Assembly (NCBI RefSeq): GCF_027533845.1
Contig: NZ_JAPZVN010000024.1
Span: forward strand, 1 to 64,000
Direction: 5' to 3'
Length of the DNA stretch: 64,000 bases
Origin: Streptomyces sp. RPT161
GTDB lineage: Bacteria; Actinomycetota; Actinomycetes; Streptomycetales; Streptomycetaceae
Of the stretch, positions 51,743 through 57,928 are shown piece by piece. The notes beneath the pieces were generated by a model. That model was not told the DNA's origin. It saw nothing but the letters and a program-made list of their open reading frames with translations, and made no database searches. The position numbers were made by a program, and so were the translations under genes. Each line of letters opens with the position of its first letter. The first letter of the stretch is position 1.

Positions 51743-52966
51743 TCACGTCAAGAGGGCGCGCCCTAGCCAGTCGTCGCGGTCCCGCACGCCGGGCAGGGCG
51801 AAGAAGTAGCCGCCGCCGAACGGTGAGATGTAGTCCACCAGCGGCTCACCCGCCAGCCGCTTCTGCACCGCGGTGAACTGCCGGTCCAGGTCCTGCTGGT
51901 AGCACAGGAACACCAACCCCATGTCGAGGTTGCCGTTGGAGTCCATCCCCTTGTCGTAGTTGTACGCGCGGCGCAGTAGCCGCTGGTCGTCGGTGGCCGG
52001 TGTGCGGGGGTTGGCCAGCCGGATGTGGCTGTCCAGCGGGATCACGTCGCCCTTGGGGTCCTGGGGGTACTGCGGGATGTCGCTCTCGGCGTCGCCGTCC
52101 AGGGGCGCGCCGCTGTCCCTGCGGCGGCCGAACATCCGCTCCTGTTCGCTGATCGAGACCCGGTCCCAGAACTCCACCAGCATCCGGATCAGCCGCACCA
52201 CCTGGTAGCTGCCGCCCGCGGTCCACGCCGGTTCCCCCGAGCCGCTGGCCGGGACCCACACCAGGCGGTCCATCTCCCGGGTGTTGGAGGTGTCGGGGTT
52301 GGCGGTGCCGTCCTTGAACCCCATGTGGTTGCGCGGGGTGCCGGACGGGCGCGGTGCGCTGACGAAGCCGTCGATCCGCCAACGCACCTGTGCCCCGCCG
52401 CGGGTGTGCCGGGCGATGTCGCGCAGCGCGTGCAGCACGGTGTCGGTGGAGTCGGCGCACAGTTGCAGGCTCAGGTCGCCGTGGCACCAGGCCGGGTCGA
52501 GGTCGTCGTCCGGGAAGGTGTCCATCGCCCGCAGCCTGCGCGGCTTGCGGGCGCCCAGCCCGAACCGGCCGTCGAACAGCGAGGCCCCTGCGCCGACGGT
52601 CACGGTCAGCCGGTCGGCGGGCAGTCGTGGGCCGAGGGTGCCGGAGTCGGCGGGCGGCTCGGTGATGCCGAGGGACGGCGGGGTACCTCCCTCGGTCAGG
52701 AAGCGGGCCCGCTCGGTGATGGTGCGCAGCAGATCGGTCAGTTCACCCCGGTCGGCCGCGGTCACGTCCAACGCGGCCAGCACGCACTGGCGTTGCGACG
52801 CGGTGGTGACGCCCGCCTGGTGGACGCCGTGGAACGGGATGGTGGAGGGCGCGTCGAGCGGCGCGGCCTGCGCGGCGTCGGCCCGCACCAGACCGGTGGT
52901 GGCGGCGCCGGTGATCCCCGCGGCCGCGGCGCCGCGCAGGAAGAAGCGGCGGTCCAGCCCGGTCAT
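51743..52966 (-). CDS. efeB: DyP-type heme peroxidase / deferrochelatase EfeB, Tat-exported
   Basis: A 407-residue protein. The signal [20 protein letters not shown] is a classical Tat sequence. The DyP signature GFKDGTANP supplies the catalytic Asp, and [20 protein letters not shown] with [18 protein letters not shown] and the proximal region [10 protein letters not shown] are typical of the EfeB subgroup. EfeB oxidises or dechelates heme and works with EfeO in ferrous iron uptake. It overlaps the efeO stop as ATGA (52963-52966) and has GGAGG upstream. No efeU gene is adjacent. Confidence 0.92.
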
Positions 52967-54228
52967 GACGTCCTCCGTACATCGCATACCGCGGCGACCG
53001 CGGCGAGTTGCTCCACGGCGGCGCCGGTGTCGGCGTCGACCCGCTCGCGCTGGGTGCGGCTGAGGGCGTTCAGCGCGGTCCAGTGGCCGTCGGTTTCGAA
53101 CCCGTCGAGGGTGTGCTGCATCCGGTCCAACGCGGCGTCCACCCGCGGGAGTTGGGGGAGGCGGGCGGCGGTCAGCAGCGGCCGCAGGTAGCCGAGCGCG
53201 GTCCTGGTGCCGTCGAGGTTGGCGCGGGCGGTGGCCAGGTTGCTGCCGCTGCCGTAGTCGGTCCGGCCGGTCAGCTCGAACTGAACGGTGTTCTCCAGGA
53301 TCTCGTGCGCCCGCAGTCCCAGTTGTGCGGGGTCCATCCGCGCCTGCGACCAGCCGGACCGCAGTTGGTCCACGTCCTTGCCCAACTGGTCGGCGGGGCC
53401 GCGCAGTTGGTCGGCGCTCTGGCCGTGCCACAGGCCGTACTCGATACGGTGGAAGCCGGTGAAGCGCGGATCCGAGCTGCCCTGCGGCAGTCCGGCGGTG
53501 GTGCCGTTGATCGCCTTGTCGGCGTCGCCGAAGGTGCCGTACGCGGCGCCCATCCGCTCGTACACCAGATGCGCGGGCAGCCAGGCGGCGCGCGCGGCGT
53601 CGAGGTCCCCGCTGTCGACGGCGTCCTTCAACGCGCCGACCCTGTCGGCGAGCCGGCCCATCTGGCCGCCGATCCACTGCTGGTAGGCGATGGTGGGCGG
53701 GATCAGGTCGTGTTGGCTGACCGGTACCGCGGCGGGTCCGGCGGCGGCGTGACCGGCGATCCGGACCGTGGGGCCGGTCACGGCGTCGGCGTCGTCCGGC
53801 AGGCACTTGAAGGCGTAGGAGCCGCCGCCGAGGGTGACCTGGAGCGGGCGCGTGGTGCCCGGGGCCAGGCCCTCGACCTCGCCGTAGACCGCACCGGTGC
53901 CGGGATCGACCAGATCCACCTCGGCGGGGCCGCTGGAGGCGTTGTGGACGTCGAACACCTGGTCGCCGCCGTGCCCGTCGGTCCAGCCCTGCCCGCAGTC
54001 GCCCGCGGACATCGTCACCCGGGTGTGCGGCAACCCGTCCGGGTACGCGGCGCTCTGCCGCGCCGCGGGCCGGCCGGCACCGTCCATCGCGCTCACCAGC
54101 ACCGCGACCACCACGGCGACCGCCACCAGCCCACCGCCCGCCGACAGCAGCCCACGCCGACCGCGCGGTATTCGTGGGCGGATCACTCGGCGGCTCCAGC
54201 GGGCACAGGACGTAAACGGCGTGGGCAC
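52963..54228 (-). CDS. efeO: Iron uptake system protein EfeO
   Basis: A 421-residue protein with an N-terminal membrane helix ([19 protein letters not shown]), a cupredoxin-like domain ([30 protein letters not shown]) and a C-terminal M75 imelysin-like domain with the metal-binding HxxE in [10 protein letters not shown]. EfeO binds ferrous iron outside the membrane and passes it to the EfeU permease. Here it precedes efeB but no efeU is found. Start is GTG 54228. A cold-shock gene lies 124 bases upstream, same strand. Confidence 0.9.
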
Positions 54229-54629: not shown

Positions 54630-55703
54630 TCAGGTGCCATCCAGCACCCGCGAACCGCCGATCGGCAGATCCCACAGATCCTGTCGGGGACGCCCGCTGG
54701 CGACCCACGCCGCCCGGCAACGGGTCAGCGGCTCCAGCGGCGGCTCGGCGGAGAGCAGGAACGTCGCCCAGTGCATCGGGGCCATCACCCGCGCGCCCAC
54801 GTCGAGGCAGGCCTGGACCGCCTCCTCCGGATCGGTGTGCACCGAGCGCAGCAGCCGCCTGGGCTGGTAGGCGCCGATGGGCAGCAGGGCGATGTCGATG
54901 TCCGGGTGGCGGCGGCCGATCTCGCGGAACCAGTGTCCGTACCCGGTGTCCCCGGCGAAGTACAGCCGCTGCCCCGCAGGGTCGCTGAGCACCCAGCCGC
55001 CCCACAGCGAACGGCAGGTGTCGGTCAGGGTGCGCTTGCTCCAGTGGTGCGCGGGCACGAACTCGAAGCGCACCCCGCCCAGTTCGGCCGCTTCCCACCA
55101 GTCCAGTTCGGTGACCCGGGTGAAGCCGCGGCGGCGGCACCAGCGGGCCAGCCCGGCCGGGACGAACAGCGCGGTGTCGCGCGGCAGCCGCTTGAGGGTG
55201 GGGGCGTCCAGGTGGTCGTAGTGGTTGTGGCTGATGACCACCGCGTCCACCGGCGGCAGGTTCGCCCAGGCCACGCCGACCGGGGTGACCCGGGCAGGGG
55301 TGCCGAGGATCCTGCGGGACCACACCGGGTCGGTCAGCACGGTCAGGCCGCCGACGCGCACCACCCAACTGGCGTGTCCCACCCAGCTGATGGCCAGCGT
55401 CCGGGCGTCCACGTCGGGCAGCCGGGCGGGCCGGACCGGAAGCCTGGGCAGGTCGGCGAGGTCCTCACGGCGGGGGCGCAGACCTCCCTGGCGGCTGGCC
55501 CGGAACATCTCCAGGAAACCCGGGAGCGGTTCGGTCATACGGGCGGCGAAGGACCGCGGCCAGACCCGCCGCTCACCGATGGGCCGCGGACGGCTGTCGG
55601 TGCCGGGCGCGCCGGTGGGTCGCGGCGCCTCCGGCGCCGTGGGGCCGATATGGGGCCGCTCGGCCTGATCAGGCCGTTCGCTCTGTTCGGTCTGATCGGT
55701 CAT
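54630..55703 (-). CDS. NAPE-PLD-like metallo-beta-lactamase-fold hydrolase
   Basis: A 357-residue MBL protein. Metal motif HNHYDHLD (HxHxDH), then VPAHHWSKRTLTD, LYFAGDTGYGHWF and MAPMHWATF provide the other ligands. The arrangement ISWVGHASWVVRVGGLTVLT with DPVWSRRILG is characteristic of N-acylphosphatidylethanolamine phospholipase D-like and UlaG-like enzymes (150-residue class, not beta-lactamases). The N-terminal 60 residues are disordered (Pro/Glu/Arg). ATG 55703 follows GGAG at six bases. It lies 73 bases after the aminotransferase-like gene in the same direction. Substrate likely a phospholipid or phosphodiester. Confidence 0.85.
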   Translation of the reverse strand: MTDQTEQSERPDQAERPHIGPTAPEAPRPTGAPGTDSRPRPIGERRVWPRSFAARMTEPLPGFLEMFRASRQGGLRPRREDLADLPRLPVRPARLPDVDARTLAISWVGHASWVVRVGGLTVLTDPVWSRRILGTPARVTPVGVAWANLPPVDAVVISHNHYDHLDAPTLKRLPRDTALFVPAGLARWCRRRGFTRVTELDWWEAAELGGVRFEFVPAHHWSKRTLTDTCRSLWGGWVLSDPAGQRLYFAGDTGYGHWFREIGRRHPDIDIALLPIGAYQPRRLLRSVHTDPEEAVQACLDVGARVMAPMHWATFLLSAEPPLEPLTRCRAAWVASGRPRQDLWDLPIGGSRVLDGT

Positions 55704-55776
55704 CAACGCTCCAATCGGTGGGGGCACCTTGCGGCGGCCGGACGGGACCGAGGGCGGGGCGCCCGTTGACGGTATT

Positions 55777-56958
55777 TCAGGCGGCGGTCAGTTCGCAGAA
55801 GGCGGTGCCGAGCGCCGCCAACGCCTCGGCGACCTGCGGCACCCGCAGCGGTTCCGCGGCGTGCAGCGCGGCTTCCCGCTCGGCGGGCGTGCCGCCGTAC
55901 AGCACCGAGGTCGTGATCCGTACCCGCAGCGCGGCCGGGTCATCGCCGAACCAGGGGCCCGCGACGGCCCCCGGCAGCCGCTCGGCCAGCGCCTCCGGGC
56001 CGGTGACGCCGTGCTCGGCGAGAGCCGGGCGCAGCGGGCCGAAGTCGGGGTAGAGCTGGTGTCCGGCCTGCGGCGGCAGGCAGAGCGCGCCCAGTCGGGT
56101 GACGGCGCGGTGCGCGGCGGCGGCCACGGCGGCGTGCAGCCGTACGGCGGCGGCGGTGCGCTCCCGTAGCGCGGCGGGCTCGGCCAGGGCGAGTGCGGCG
56201 GCCTGGGCGACGGGGGCGGCCGGTACCGCCCGCTGCGCGTCGAGCAGATCGCGTACCGGGCCGAGCAGAGCGCCCGCCGGCTCGCCATGCGGGAACCGCG
56301 CGACGGCCGCGGGCCAGGAGGGCGGCAGCAGTGCGCCCGCCAGGTCGGTGAGCACCACGGTCTGCCGGGGGAACGACTCGGCCGGGCTGAGCAGCACGGT
56401 GTGCGGGTCGTGCAGCGTGTCGCGGAACGTCTCGTCGCAGGCCACCAGCACTGAGGCGGCGGCCGCCGCCTCGCACACCTCGTGCAGCAGCTCGGGCGGG
56501 GCGACGGTGCCGGTGGGGTCGTCGGCGACGGAGACCACCAGCAGCCGCGGCTGCGCTCCGCCCTCCCGGGCCCGGCGCAGGGTCTCCAGCAGCGCCACCG
56601 GGTCCGGTAGGCCACCGCACTCGGGCGGGGTCGCGACGGGGTGCACCCGGCGGCCGAGCACCCTCGCCTGCGCGGCGTACCAGGCCGTCGCGGGACTGGG
56701 CACCACCAGATCACCGCCGACCGCCGCCAGCAGGGCGAGCAGCAGCGGCGCCGGGCCCGGCGCGAGCAGCACCCGGTCCGGCTCGGTGGCCAGCCCACGC
56801 CGCCCCCAGTAGCCGCAGGCCGCGGTGCGCACGGCGACATCGCCGCCGGTCGGCTGCGGCGGCGCGTCCCGGGCCTGGGCGAACCGGTCGGCCAGCTCGG
56901 GGGCCGCGGGGAGCCCGGGATCGGGGCGGGAGGGGGAGCCAGCCGCCGTGCGGTGCAT
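55777..56958 (-). CDS. PLP-aminotransferase-fold protein lacking the catalytic lysine (no Lys at all)
   Basis: A 393-residue protein with the layout of class I/II aminotransferases: N-terminal arm, APGPAPLLLALLAAVGG, SPATAWYAAQARVLGRRV, VSVADDPTGTVAPPELL, VACDETFRDT (the PLP Asp region) and LTDLAGALLPPSWPAAV where SxSK should be. The PLP lysine is absent. In fact the translated protein has no lysine. It can thus not form the usual internal aldimine; a regulatory, binding or novel role is more likely than transamination. ATG 56958 is chosen because GGAGG lies five bases upstream; the ATG 12 bases earlier is less well placed. Downstream neighbours are the metallo-hydrolase and, upstream, a DUF6158-like gene. 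Confidence 0.8.
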   Translation of the reverse strand: MHRTAAGSPSRPDPGLPAAPELADRFAQARDAPPQPTGGDVAVRTAACGYWGRRGLATEPDRVLLAPGPAPLLLALLAAVGGDLVVPSPATAWYAAQARVLGRRVHPVATPPECGGLPDPVALLETLRRAREGGAQPRLLVVSVADDPTGTVAPPELLHEVCEAAAAASVLVACDETFRDTLHDPHTVLLSPAESFPRQTVVLTDLAGALLPPSWPAAVARFPHGEPAGALLGPVRDLLDAQRAVPAAPVAQAAALALAEPAALRERTAAAVRLHAAVAAAAHRAVTRLGALCLPPQAGHQLYPDFGPLRPALAEHGVTGPEALAERLPGAVAGPWFGDDPAALRVRITTSVLYGGTPAEREAALHAAEPLRVPQVAEALAALGTAFCELTAA

Positions 56959-56999: not shown

Positions 57000-57239
57000 T
57001 CAGACGCAGGCGGCGCGGGCGCGGGCGCCTGCCCTGGTACGGCCGGGAGCCGGGCGGCGCTGCGGGTGACGCCGCAGGTACTCGCCCTCCAGCGCGGCCA
57101 TCCGCGAGCTGTGCGTCCGCAGCGCGTCCGACGATCCGTACAGCAGCGTCTCGTGCCGGGTGCGGTGGATGGCCTCCAGTTCCTTGATCAGCAGGCGGTC
57201 GTCCAGCCGCTCGGGTGCCACACCGTTGTAGTCGGCCAT
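57000..57239 (-). CDS. Small conserved protein (DUF6158-like)
   Basis: A 79-residue protein: APERLDDRLLIKELEAIHRT, RHETLLYGSSDALRTHSSRM, AALEGEYLRRHPQRR, then a basic tail. The helical pattern with HxTRHxTLxxGSxDAL and EYLRRHP is what I recall as DUF6158, a widespread actinobacterial family of unknown function. ATG 57239 follows GGAAGGA. It is 41 bases before the aminotransferase-like gene, so probably co-transcribed. Confidence 0.7.
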   Translation of the reverse strand: MADYNGVAPERLDDRLLIKELEAIHRTRHETLLYGSSDALRTHSSRMAALEGEYLRRHPQRRPAPGRTRAGARARAACV

Positions 57240-57415
57240 GGGCGCGTCCTTCCCGGCTCGGTCCTTCCGGTCCCGCCACGGCGGTCGCCCACGCGAAGCG
57301 CGTCCCCGTGGGGAACCGCGGCCAGCCCTGACGCGGCCAGTATCGCAACGGCCACCGGCCCCCGCACGCCCGCTCGCCTGTCCGGCGGACCCGGCGCCGA
57401 AGTACGCGGCGCCCG

Positions 57416-57928
57416 CTAGTCGGTCACGGGTGCCTCGCGCTGTTCCAGTTCCGCGAAGAACCGTTCCACCAACGCGCTGTCGCGGGCCGTCTCGTCAAGC
57501 GGTTCGCCGATGACGCGTCCGGCGAGCTGGACGGCGAGCGTCCCCACGTCGTGCCGCAGCTCCGCCTCCGCGAGGGCCCGGTCGGCGGCTACCTTCGCCA
57601 GACCGGCCGCCACGGTCTCCTCGCGCTGCCGTACGCCCTCCTCCCGGATCCGGGCGAGCAGTGCGGTGCCCTCCTCGATCCGGCCCTGCCGCTCGCGGGC
57701 CGCCTCACGGCGCGCCTCGGCGATGATCTCGCGCCCTTCCGCGGCTGTGCGTTCGGCCTCGGCGGCCTGTTCCTCGGCCTTCGCCAGCCCGCCGTCGATC
57801 AACTCCTCGCGCTGTGCGATGACCTTCGCGATGCGCGGCAGGAGCACCAGGCCGAACATCCCGAAGACGACGAAGAACAGGACGAGCCCGAGGACGAGCT
57901 CAGTGGTGTCCGGCTTCAACGGTCCCAT
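57416..57928 (-). CDS. Orphan ATP synthase b-subunit (AtpF)-like protein
   Basis: A 170-residue protein with one N-terminal membrane helix (LVLGLVLFFVVFGMFGLVLL) and PRIAKVIAQREELIDGGLAK, followed by a long heptad-rich helix (residues 45-150) and LRHDVGTLAVQLAGRVIGEP near the end. These are hallmark features of the F0 stator subunit b, including the delta-binding C-terminal section. It is not next to any other atp gene; it precedes DUF6158 and the lysine-free aminotransferase homologue. So it is a paralogue, perhaps recruited as an alternative stator or as a membrane scaffold. ATG 57928. Confidence 0.8.
   Translation of the reverse strand: MGPLKPDTTELVLGLVLFFVVFGMFGLVLLPRIAKVIAQREELIDGGLAKAEEQAAEAERTAAEGREIIAEARREAARERQGRIEEGTALLARIREEGVRQREETVAAGLAKVAADRALAEAELRHDVGTLAVQLAGRVIGEPLDETARDSALVERFFAELEQREAPVTD

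Follow-up and report, generated by a model that had tools for sequence, protein, structure and literature searches.

A lysine-free aminotransferase-fold protein from Streptomyces sp. RPT161 belongs to a clade that has probably given up PLP chemistry and is usually encoded beside a NAPE-PLD-like hydrolase

The window, the whole stretch of 64,000 nucleotides of Streptomyces sp. RPT161 that was analysed, carries a run of four genes on its minus strand. An AtpF-like gene comes first, then a gene encoding a DUF6158 protein, then the gene that concerns us here, and last a gene encoding a NAPE-PLD-like hydrolase. Neighbouring genes were called with an ORF script of our own. The features, in the order of the run, are these:

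57416..57928, minus strand: paralogue of the b subunit of ATP synthase (AtpF-like; PF00430), first gene of the run
57000..57239, minus strand: small DUF6158 protein, 79 aa (PF19655), just upstream of the Lys-less gene
55777..56958, minus strand: Lys-less class I aminotransferase-fold protein, 393 aa (open reading frame, PF00155, predicted fold and alignment)
56509..56523, minus strand: codons of residues 146-150, D-D-P-T-G, with D147 in place of the O3'-binding Asn of D-N-P-T-G (by alignment)
56335..56343, minus strand: codons for L-A-G (residues 206-208), opposite the L-S-K of active relatives (by alignment)
56335-56337, minus strand: codon of G208, at the position of the PLP lysine (by alignment)
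54630..55727, minus strand: MBL-fold metallo-hydrolase, NAPE-PLD-like, with an HxHxDH motif (PF12706; match to PDB 4qn9), the downstream gene, starting at GTG 55727 or ATG 55703

Also on the minus strand of the window (51746-54228) are genes for an imelysin-domain protein and then a Dyp-type peroxidase, a pair resembling what we take to be the EfeO and EfeB parts of an iron-uptake system.

The strand of the gene at 55777-56958 is corrected here to minus; read on the plus strand, the interval is interrupted by stops. Translation starts at an ATG (56958) directly preceded by GGAGGT, with a second in-frame ATG four codons upstream, and yields 393 residues that include no lysine. The longest open frame, 523 aa from a TTG at 57348, is Lys-free as well, so no alternative start introduces a lysine, and we reject the idea that a wrong start or frame hides one. 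The preliminary description was right that the protein contains no lysine at all, whichever in-frame start is used. An error in the sequence at the critical position is likewise excluded, because none of 95 distinct homologues has a lysine there. Since the protein has no lysine, PLP cannot be held in a Schiff base through one, as had been claimed, and the proposed alignment with class I aminotransferases extends the claim: besides the PLP lysine, further contacts to the cofactor are missing, namely the phosphate-site Arg, the Asn that binds O3' and the Trp that stacks on the ring.

The fold was said to be kept, and it evidently is. Residues 35-185 match Pfam PF00155 (Aminotransferase class I and II; E 3.6e-15, 56.5 bits against a gathering threshold of 19.7), no other Pfam family matches at E <= 0.001, and PF00155 is matched at that same threshold by 50 of the 51 clade members tested. 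A sequence search of the PDB also groups the protein with class I aminotransferases. An AlphaFold2 model (pLDDT 90.7) has aminotransferases as its top-ranked structural matches in the PDB, among them the prephenate aminotransferase of A. thaliana (5wmi; Z 38.5, 351 residues aligned, 2.8 A) and the aspartate aminotransferase (AspAT) of T. thermophilus (1bjw; Z 37.5). As modelled, then, the protein has the fold of a fold-type-I (class I) aminotransferase.

Relatives were gathered in several ways. A search of 61 genomes gave 22 with a match at E <= 1e-10, 18 of them with a Lys-less member and 4 with only a Lys-bearing one. A scan of named GTDB contigs gave 414 relatives, of which the best 80 were kept; by title, these 80 are mostly from Streptomyces, with others from Actinacidiphila, Wenjunlia, [Kitasatospora] papulosa and a Streptomycetaceae MAG. 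In all, 98 Lys-less rows were assembled, 95 of them distinct (duplicate records L050, L031 and L037 were dropped before counts were made), and a further 10 Lys-less loci were found beyond this first set. The Lys-bearing comparison set consists of 36 rows, 8 in a first group (L022-L029) and 28 in a second (L160-L179 and L182-L189). Within the family Streptomycetaceae, 210 of 297 genomes match at E <= 1e-50, some holding only a Lys-bearing relative. A draw of 296 genomes from across the class gave 66 matching at E <= 1e-30. Of these, 38 belong to other families; 20 of the 38 were read, and all 20 carry the PLP lysine. Among the rows examined, Lys-less members were met only in Streptomycetaceae.

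The state of the active site was tabulated for the 95 Lys-less rows and the first 8 Lys-bearing rows, aligned to 1bjw and numbered according to T. thermophilus AspAT. In that enzyme we take K234 to be the PLP lysine, R242 to lie at the phosphate site, N175 to contact O3', W126 to stack on the ring, D203 to contact the pyridine nitrogen, R361 to bind the carboxylate of the substrate and Y64* to be a Tyr lent by the other chain. Every one of the 8 Lys-bearing rows has Lys, Arg, Asn, Trp and Tyr at the positions of K234, R242, N175, W126 and Y64*, as do all 28 of the second group. In the Lys-less rows, K234 has been replaced by Gly (80), Ala (10), Ser (3), Val (1) or Pro (1), and never by His; R242 by Pro in 92, with Arg in 2 and Asn in 1. 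Trp is found at W126 in none of the 95, and at least 86 have a residue other than Tyr at Y64*. N175 is Asp in 94 and Glu in 1 and is never Asn, a count of Asp that may be inflated, as one of the two patterns used in the GTDB scan required DDPT and so favours D147. In rows found without that pattern, Asp 147 is present in 18 of 18 in one set and in 8 of the 9 readable in another. The protein in the window itself has Pro in place of the phosphate-site Arg and Asp in place of the O3' Asn.

Other positions are retained or newly fixed. The equivalent of D203 (D175 in the window protein) is kept in all 95 Lys-less rows and that of R361 (R345) in 92; one Lys-bearing row (L174) has Asn in place of the pyridine-nitrogen Asp. 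Position 205 is Asp in 93 of the 95 Lys-less rows vs Gly in all 8 Lys-bearing ones, while E125, R129 and E163, mixed in the Lys-bearing group, are present in 95 of 95. Loss of PLP chemistry in the Lys-less clade is thus well supported by the aligned residues: judged by these, no member can carry it out in the usual way, and the protein itself presumably holds no PLP.

What the clade conserves is that the PLP lysine has gone together with its site, rather than a total absence of lysine. Of the Lys-less rows, 64 contain no lysine whatever and 31 have one to three at other places, so total absence is not a conserved trait. A Lys-free protein of this size is nonetheless rarer than chance in its own genome. 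Among 205 ORFs kept by our own caller with a strict filter (from 20 stretches of 20 kb on two contigs of the same genome), none of the 40 of 350-450 aa lacks lysine, and only 1 of the 96 of at least 350 aa does. Lysine makes up 0.095% of residues in the Lys-less clade, 1.0% in the 8 Lys-bearing rows and 2.2% in the sampled ORFs. Bacteria with pupylation have been reported to have lysine deserts (PMC10665810). We set aside avoidance of lysine as an escape from pupylation: 23 of the 32 lysines in the 8 Lys-bearing rows fall at three positions (GSK, AGK and SK), so loss of the site may account for much of the decrease.

Two trees of hand-chosen rows, both built with the active-site columns kept in, place the Lys-less rows in one group, with support of 100/99 (42 rows: 32 of the 98 Lys-less, 8 Lys-bearing and 2 outgroups) and 99/95 (62 rows: 21 of the 98 and 5 of the 10 further Lys-less, 35 of the 36 Lys-bearing and 1 outgroup). 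The group lies among the Lys-bearing rows in the smaller tree, with weak support (84/29), and the node placing it within or beside them in the larger has support of 50/0. The first branch inside the Lys-less group is formed by L016 and L018, which lack the PLP lysine and keep the phosphate-site Arg, and so the lysine was, most simply, lost first. It would also, most simply, have been lost once. Comparisons of Lys-less pairs give dN/dS of 0.07-0.13 by YN00 (11 of 12 pairs) and 0.14-0.33 by NG86 (12 of 12), and those of Lys-bearing pairs give 0.047 (1 of 3) and 0.11-0.30 (3 of 3), respectively. By these estimates the Lys-less clade is evidently under purifying selection.

The neighbours named in the preliminary description, AtpF-like, DUF6158 and NAPE-PLD-like, are all present in the window, but of the three, only the hydrolase is widely conserved alongside the Lys-less gene in other genomes. 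The match to PF12706, the match to the NAPE-PLD structure 4qn9 (E 1.4e-58) and the HxHxDH motif, found in all 85 hydrolase rows read, identify it as a predicted NAPE-PLD-like MBL hydrolase. Its gene directly follows the Lys-less gene in 83 of 94 testable distinct loci (one further locus ends at its contig), and in 9 of the 10 further Lys-less loci, L180 among the 9, it lies on the same strand within the 2-3 kb fetched. From the stop of the Lys-less gene to the earliest start of the hydrolase, the median gap is 12 nt, and it is at most 100 nt in 73 of 85 rows (counted from 60 nt before the stop, with 2 of the 85 being duplicate records). Near Lys-bearing relatives, the hydrolase was found at 0 of 36 loci (8 + 28) within the stretches fetched, which at the first 8 took in about 9 kb. 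Across the 61 genomes, an orthologue of the hydrolase (E <= 8.6e-158; next best 3.0e-53) is present in 15, and all 15 hold the Lys-less gene; none of the 61 has the orthologue without it.

The pairing has exceptions on both sides. The hydrolase is absent or partial at 11 of the 94 loci, including one with a short match (L049), and the closely related L014 and L190 both belong to the loci without it, so it is not required; in the 61-genome set, G022, G023 and G025 lack an orthologue of the hydrolase though they carry the Lys-less gene. Conversely, the Lys-less gene of L180 (G260) is split over two matches, probably a decayed copy, beside a retained hydrolase gene, which suggests that the hydrolase can persist without it. 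Also, genes farther downstream are often kept (holin/phosphodiesterase in 61 of 81 loci, DedA in 50 of 81), and part of the pairing may therefore be plain synteny. In our view the pairing speaks strongly, though not decisively, for a joint function, a partnership that gene order suggests.

As conserved partners, the other two neighbours must be rejected, as they are present in few loci: the DUF6158 gene clusters with the Lys-less gene in 14 of 81, and the AtpF-like gene, among the Lys-less loci examined, is beside it only in the window's genus. The AtpF-like paralogue of the window (57416-57928, minus strand) has a better-placed second match on another contig, and two matches of this kind occur in 9 of 41 genomes. 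The second copy in G005 adjoins a sister aminotransferase that bears the lysine (L025, L117), so an AtpF-like neighbour has occurred in both groups. At 4 of 8 loci (L110, L111, L112 and L114), a gene with what appeared by eye to be a radical-SAM-like Cys motif lies beside the Lys-bearing sister; the one tested has no Pfam match at E <= 0.001, and that reading was dropped. The named Streptomyces neighbourhoods contain, in varying shares, genes for sigma-70 family, CBS-domain, DUF2795, DedA-type (VTT) and holin/phosphodiesterase proteins and for a second MBL hydrolase. The last, found in L090 (13054-13827, minus strand) and similarly in other named loci, lies on the opposite strand and, where it is the best match, is about 32-36% identical to the first. 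Such company hints at membrane or stress roles.

How might these facts fit together? A class I aminotransferase would have lost its PLP lysine, most simply in a single event, after which the rest of the PLP site changed. A new conserved acidic set may then have arisen, with D147 and D205 joining D146, D175 and E176, which were kept, as were the fold, the carboxylate-site R345 and also R347. The old cleft would now most likely bind a ligand or a partner, and the protein would serve the NAPE-PLD-like metallo-hydrolase encoded by the next gene as its regulator, adaptor or accessory subunit. We give a probability of about 0.5 to this reading, that is, a conserved non-PLP pseudo-aminotransferase of Streptomycetaceae, binding a ligand or partner and working together with the hydrolase; the tie to the hydrolase, taken by itself, we consider close to an even bet. 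More speculatively, and rather unlikely as a specific proposal, the acidic site (D146, D147, D175, E176, D205, R345 and R347) could sense an amine or metal, or present the head group of a lipid to the hydrolase next door. If so, the two genes would form a module in which a protein of aminotransferase fold is the specificity subunit and has been mistaken for an aminotransferase throughout Streptomycetaceae.

The hydrolase might instead be unneeded, the protein being a free-standing sensor or a new non-PLP enzyme whose acidic cleft, formerly that of PLP, binds an amine, a metal or some other ligand. The shared putative pocket, made up of the same new and retained residues, would suit this, as would the survival of the gene in the 11 loci lacking a full adjacent hydrolase. 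Yet the gene pairing suggests joint work, and a match to any family other than PF00155 is lacking at E <= 0.001, so we consider this possible though doubtful. Perhaps the gene is merely decaying and carried along by synteny. The split copy in L180, drifted motifs in L181, L193, L195 and L196, and the 87 of 297 family genomes without a match at E <= 1e-50 are what decay would produce, but the low YN00 ratios given above, the 42 columns invariant across 51 sequences and the residues conserved only in the Lys-less clade make it quite improbable.

Lys-less proteins of fold type I are known in SPTLC1, GcvPA and ColD. SPTLC1 pairs with SPTLC2 and GcvPA with GcvPB, while ColD and E1 are PMP-using sugar dehydratases in which the lysine has become His. 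An inactive subunit paired with an active aminotransferase, after the manner of SPTLC1/SPTLC2 or GcvPA/GcvPB, could be imagined here too, as the fold is shared with enzymes that presumably act as dimers. Against this, 15 of the 18 Lys-less genomes have no Lys-bearing sister at E <= 1e-10 (a search that reaches close paralogues only), the next matches in the window's own genome are just 25-30% identical, and the Tyr that we take to reach PLP across the chains is gone from at least 86 of the 95 rows. We think such a pairing improbable, if by a hair less so than decay. Least probable of all is use of a cofactor without the lysine, as PMP is used by ColD and E1: the universal retention of the pyridine-nitrogen Asp would favor it, but the lysine has given way to Gly, Ala, Ser, Val or Pro rather than to His, and the phosphate and ring contacts are missing too.

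Given the loss of the PLP site in the members of the clade and the usual adjacency of the hydrolase, the product of 55777-56958 is probably misannotated, being a pseudoenzyme that has taken on another role. Since 50 of 51 members match PF00155, annotation based on that family would label the clade PLP aminotransferases, and metabolic models would then count an enzyme unable to work as one. In this clade the losses can also be set in order (L016 and L018 keep the Arg, and 92 of 95 have Pro), which suits it to studying the passage from enzyme to pseudoenzyme, and through the paired hydrolase the new function can be approached directly and tested. A literature search of titles and abstract openings, with subscription journals thinly covered, did not find the family named, which is no proof that it is undescribed.

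Compared with known systems, the Lys-less protein is like the class I PLP aminotransferases (1bjw and 5wmi) in its whole fold, its pyridine-nitrogen Asp and its carboxylate-site Arg, and differs from them in lacking the PLP lysine, the phosphate-site Arg and the stacking Trp and in having Asp for Asn. The Lys-bearing sister subfamily, of the same class, is 38-46% identical to it over most of its length but has the lysine, Asn, Trp, Tyr and Arg in 36 of 36 rows and the hydrolase nearby in 0 of 36. SPTLC1, GcvPA and ColD are either paired with an active paralogue or have His for Lys, neither pattern being seen in the Lys-less clade. Yeast Alt2 is an aminotransferase paralogue reported to have lost activity (PMC3458083, PMC5960717); likened here by description, it differs in being a paralogue of an alanine transaminase of yeast. 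Rv3778c of M. tuberculosis, as described (PMC12910592), is likewise related to PLP enzymes while lacking their lysine and was judged likely noncatalytic; it differs in being, by that same description, distant kin of cysteine desulfurases and selenocysteine lyases.
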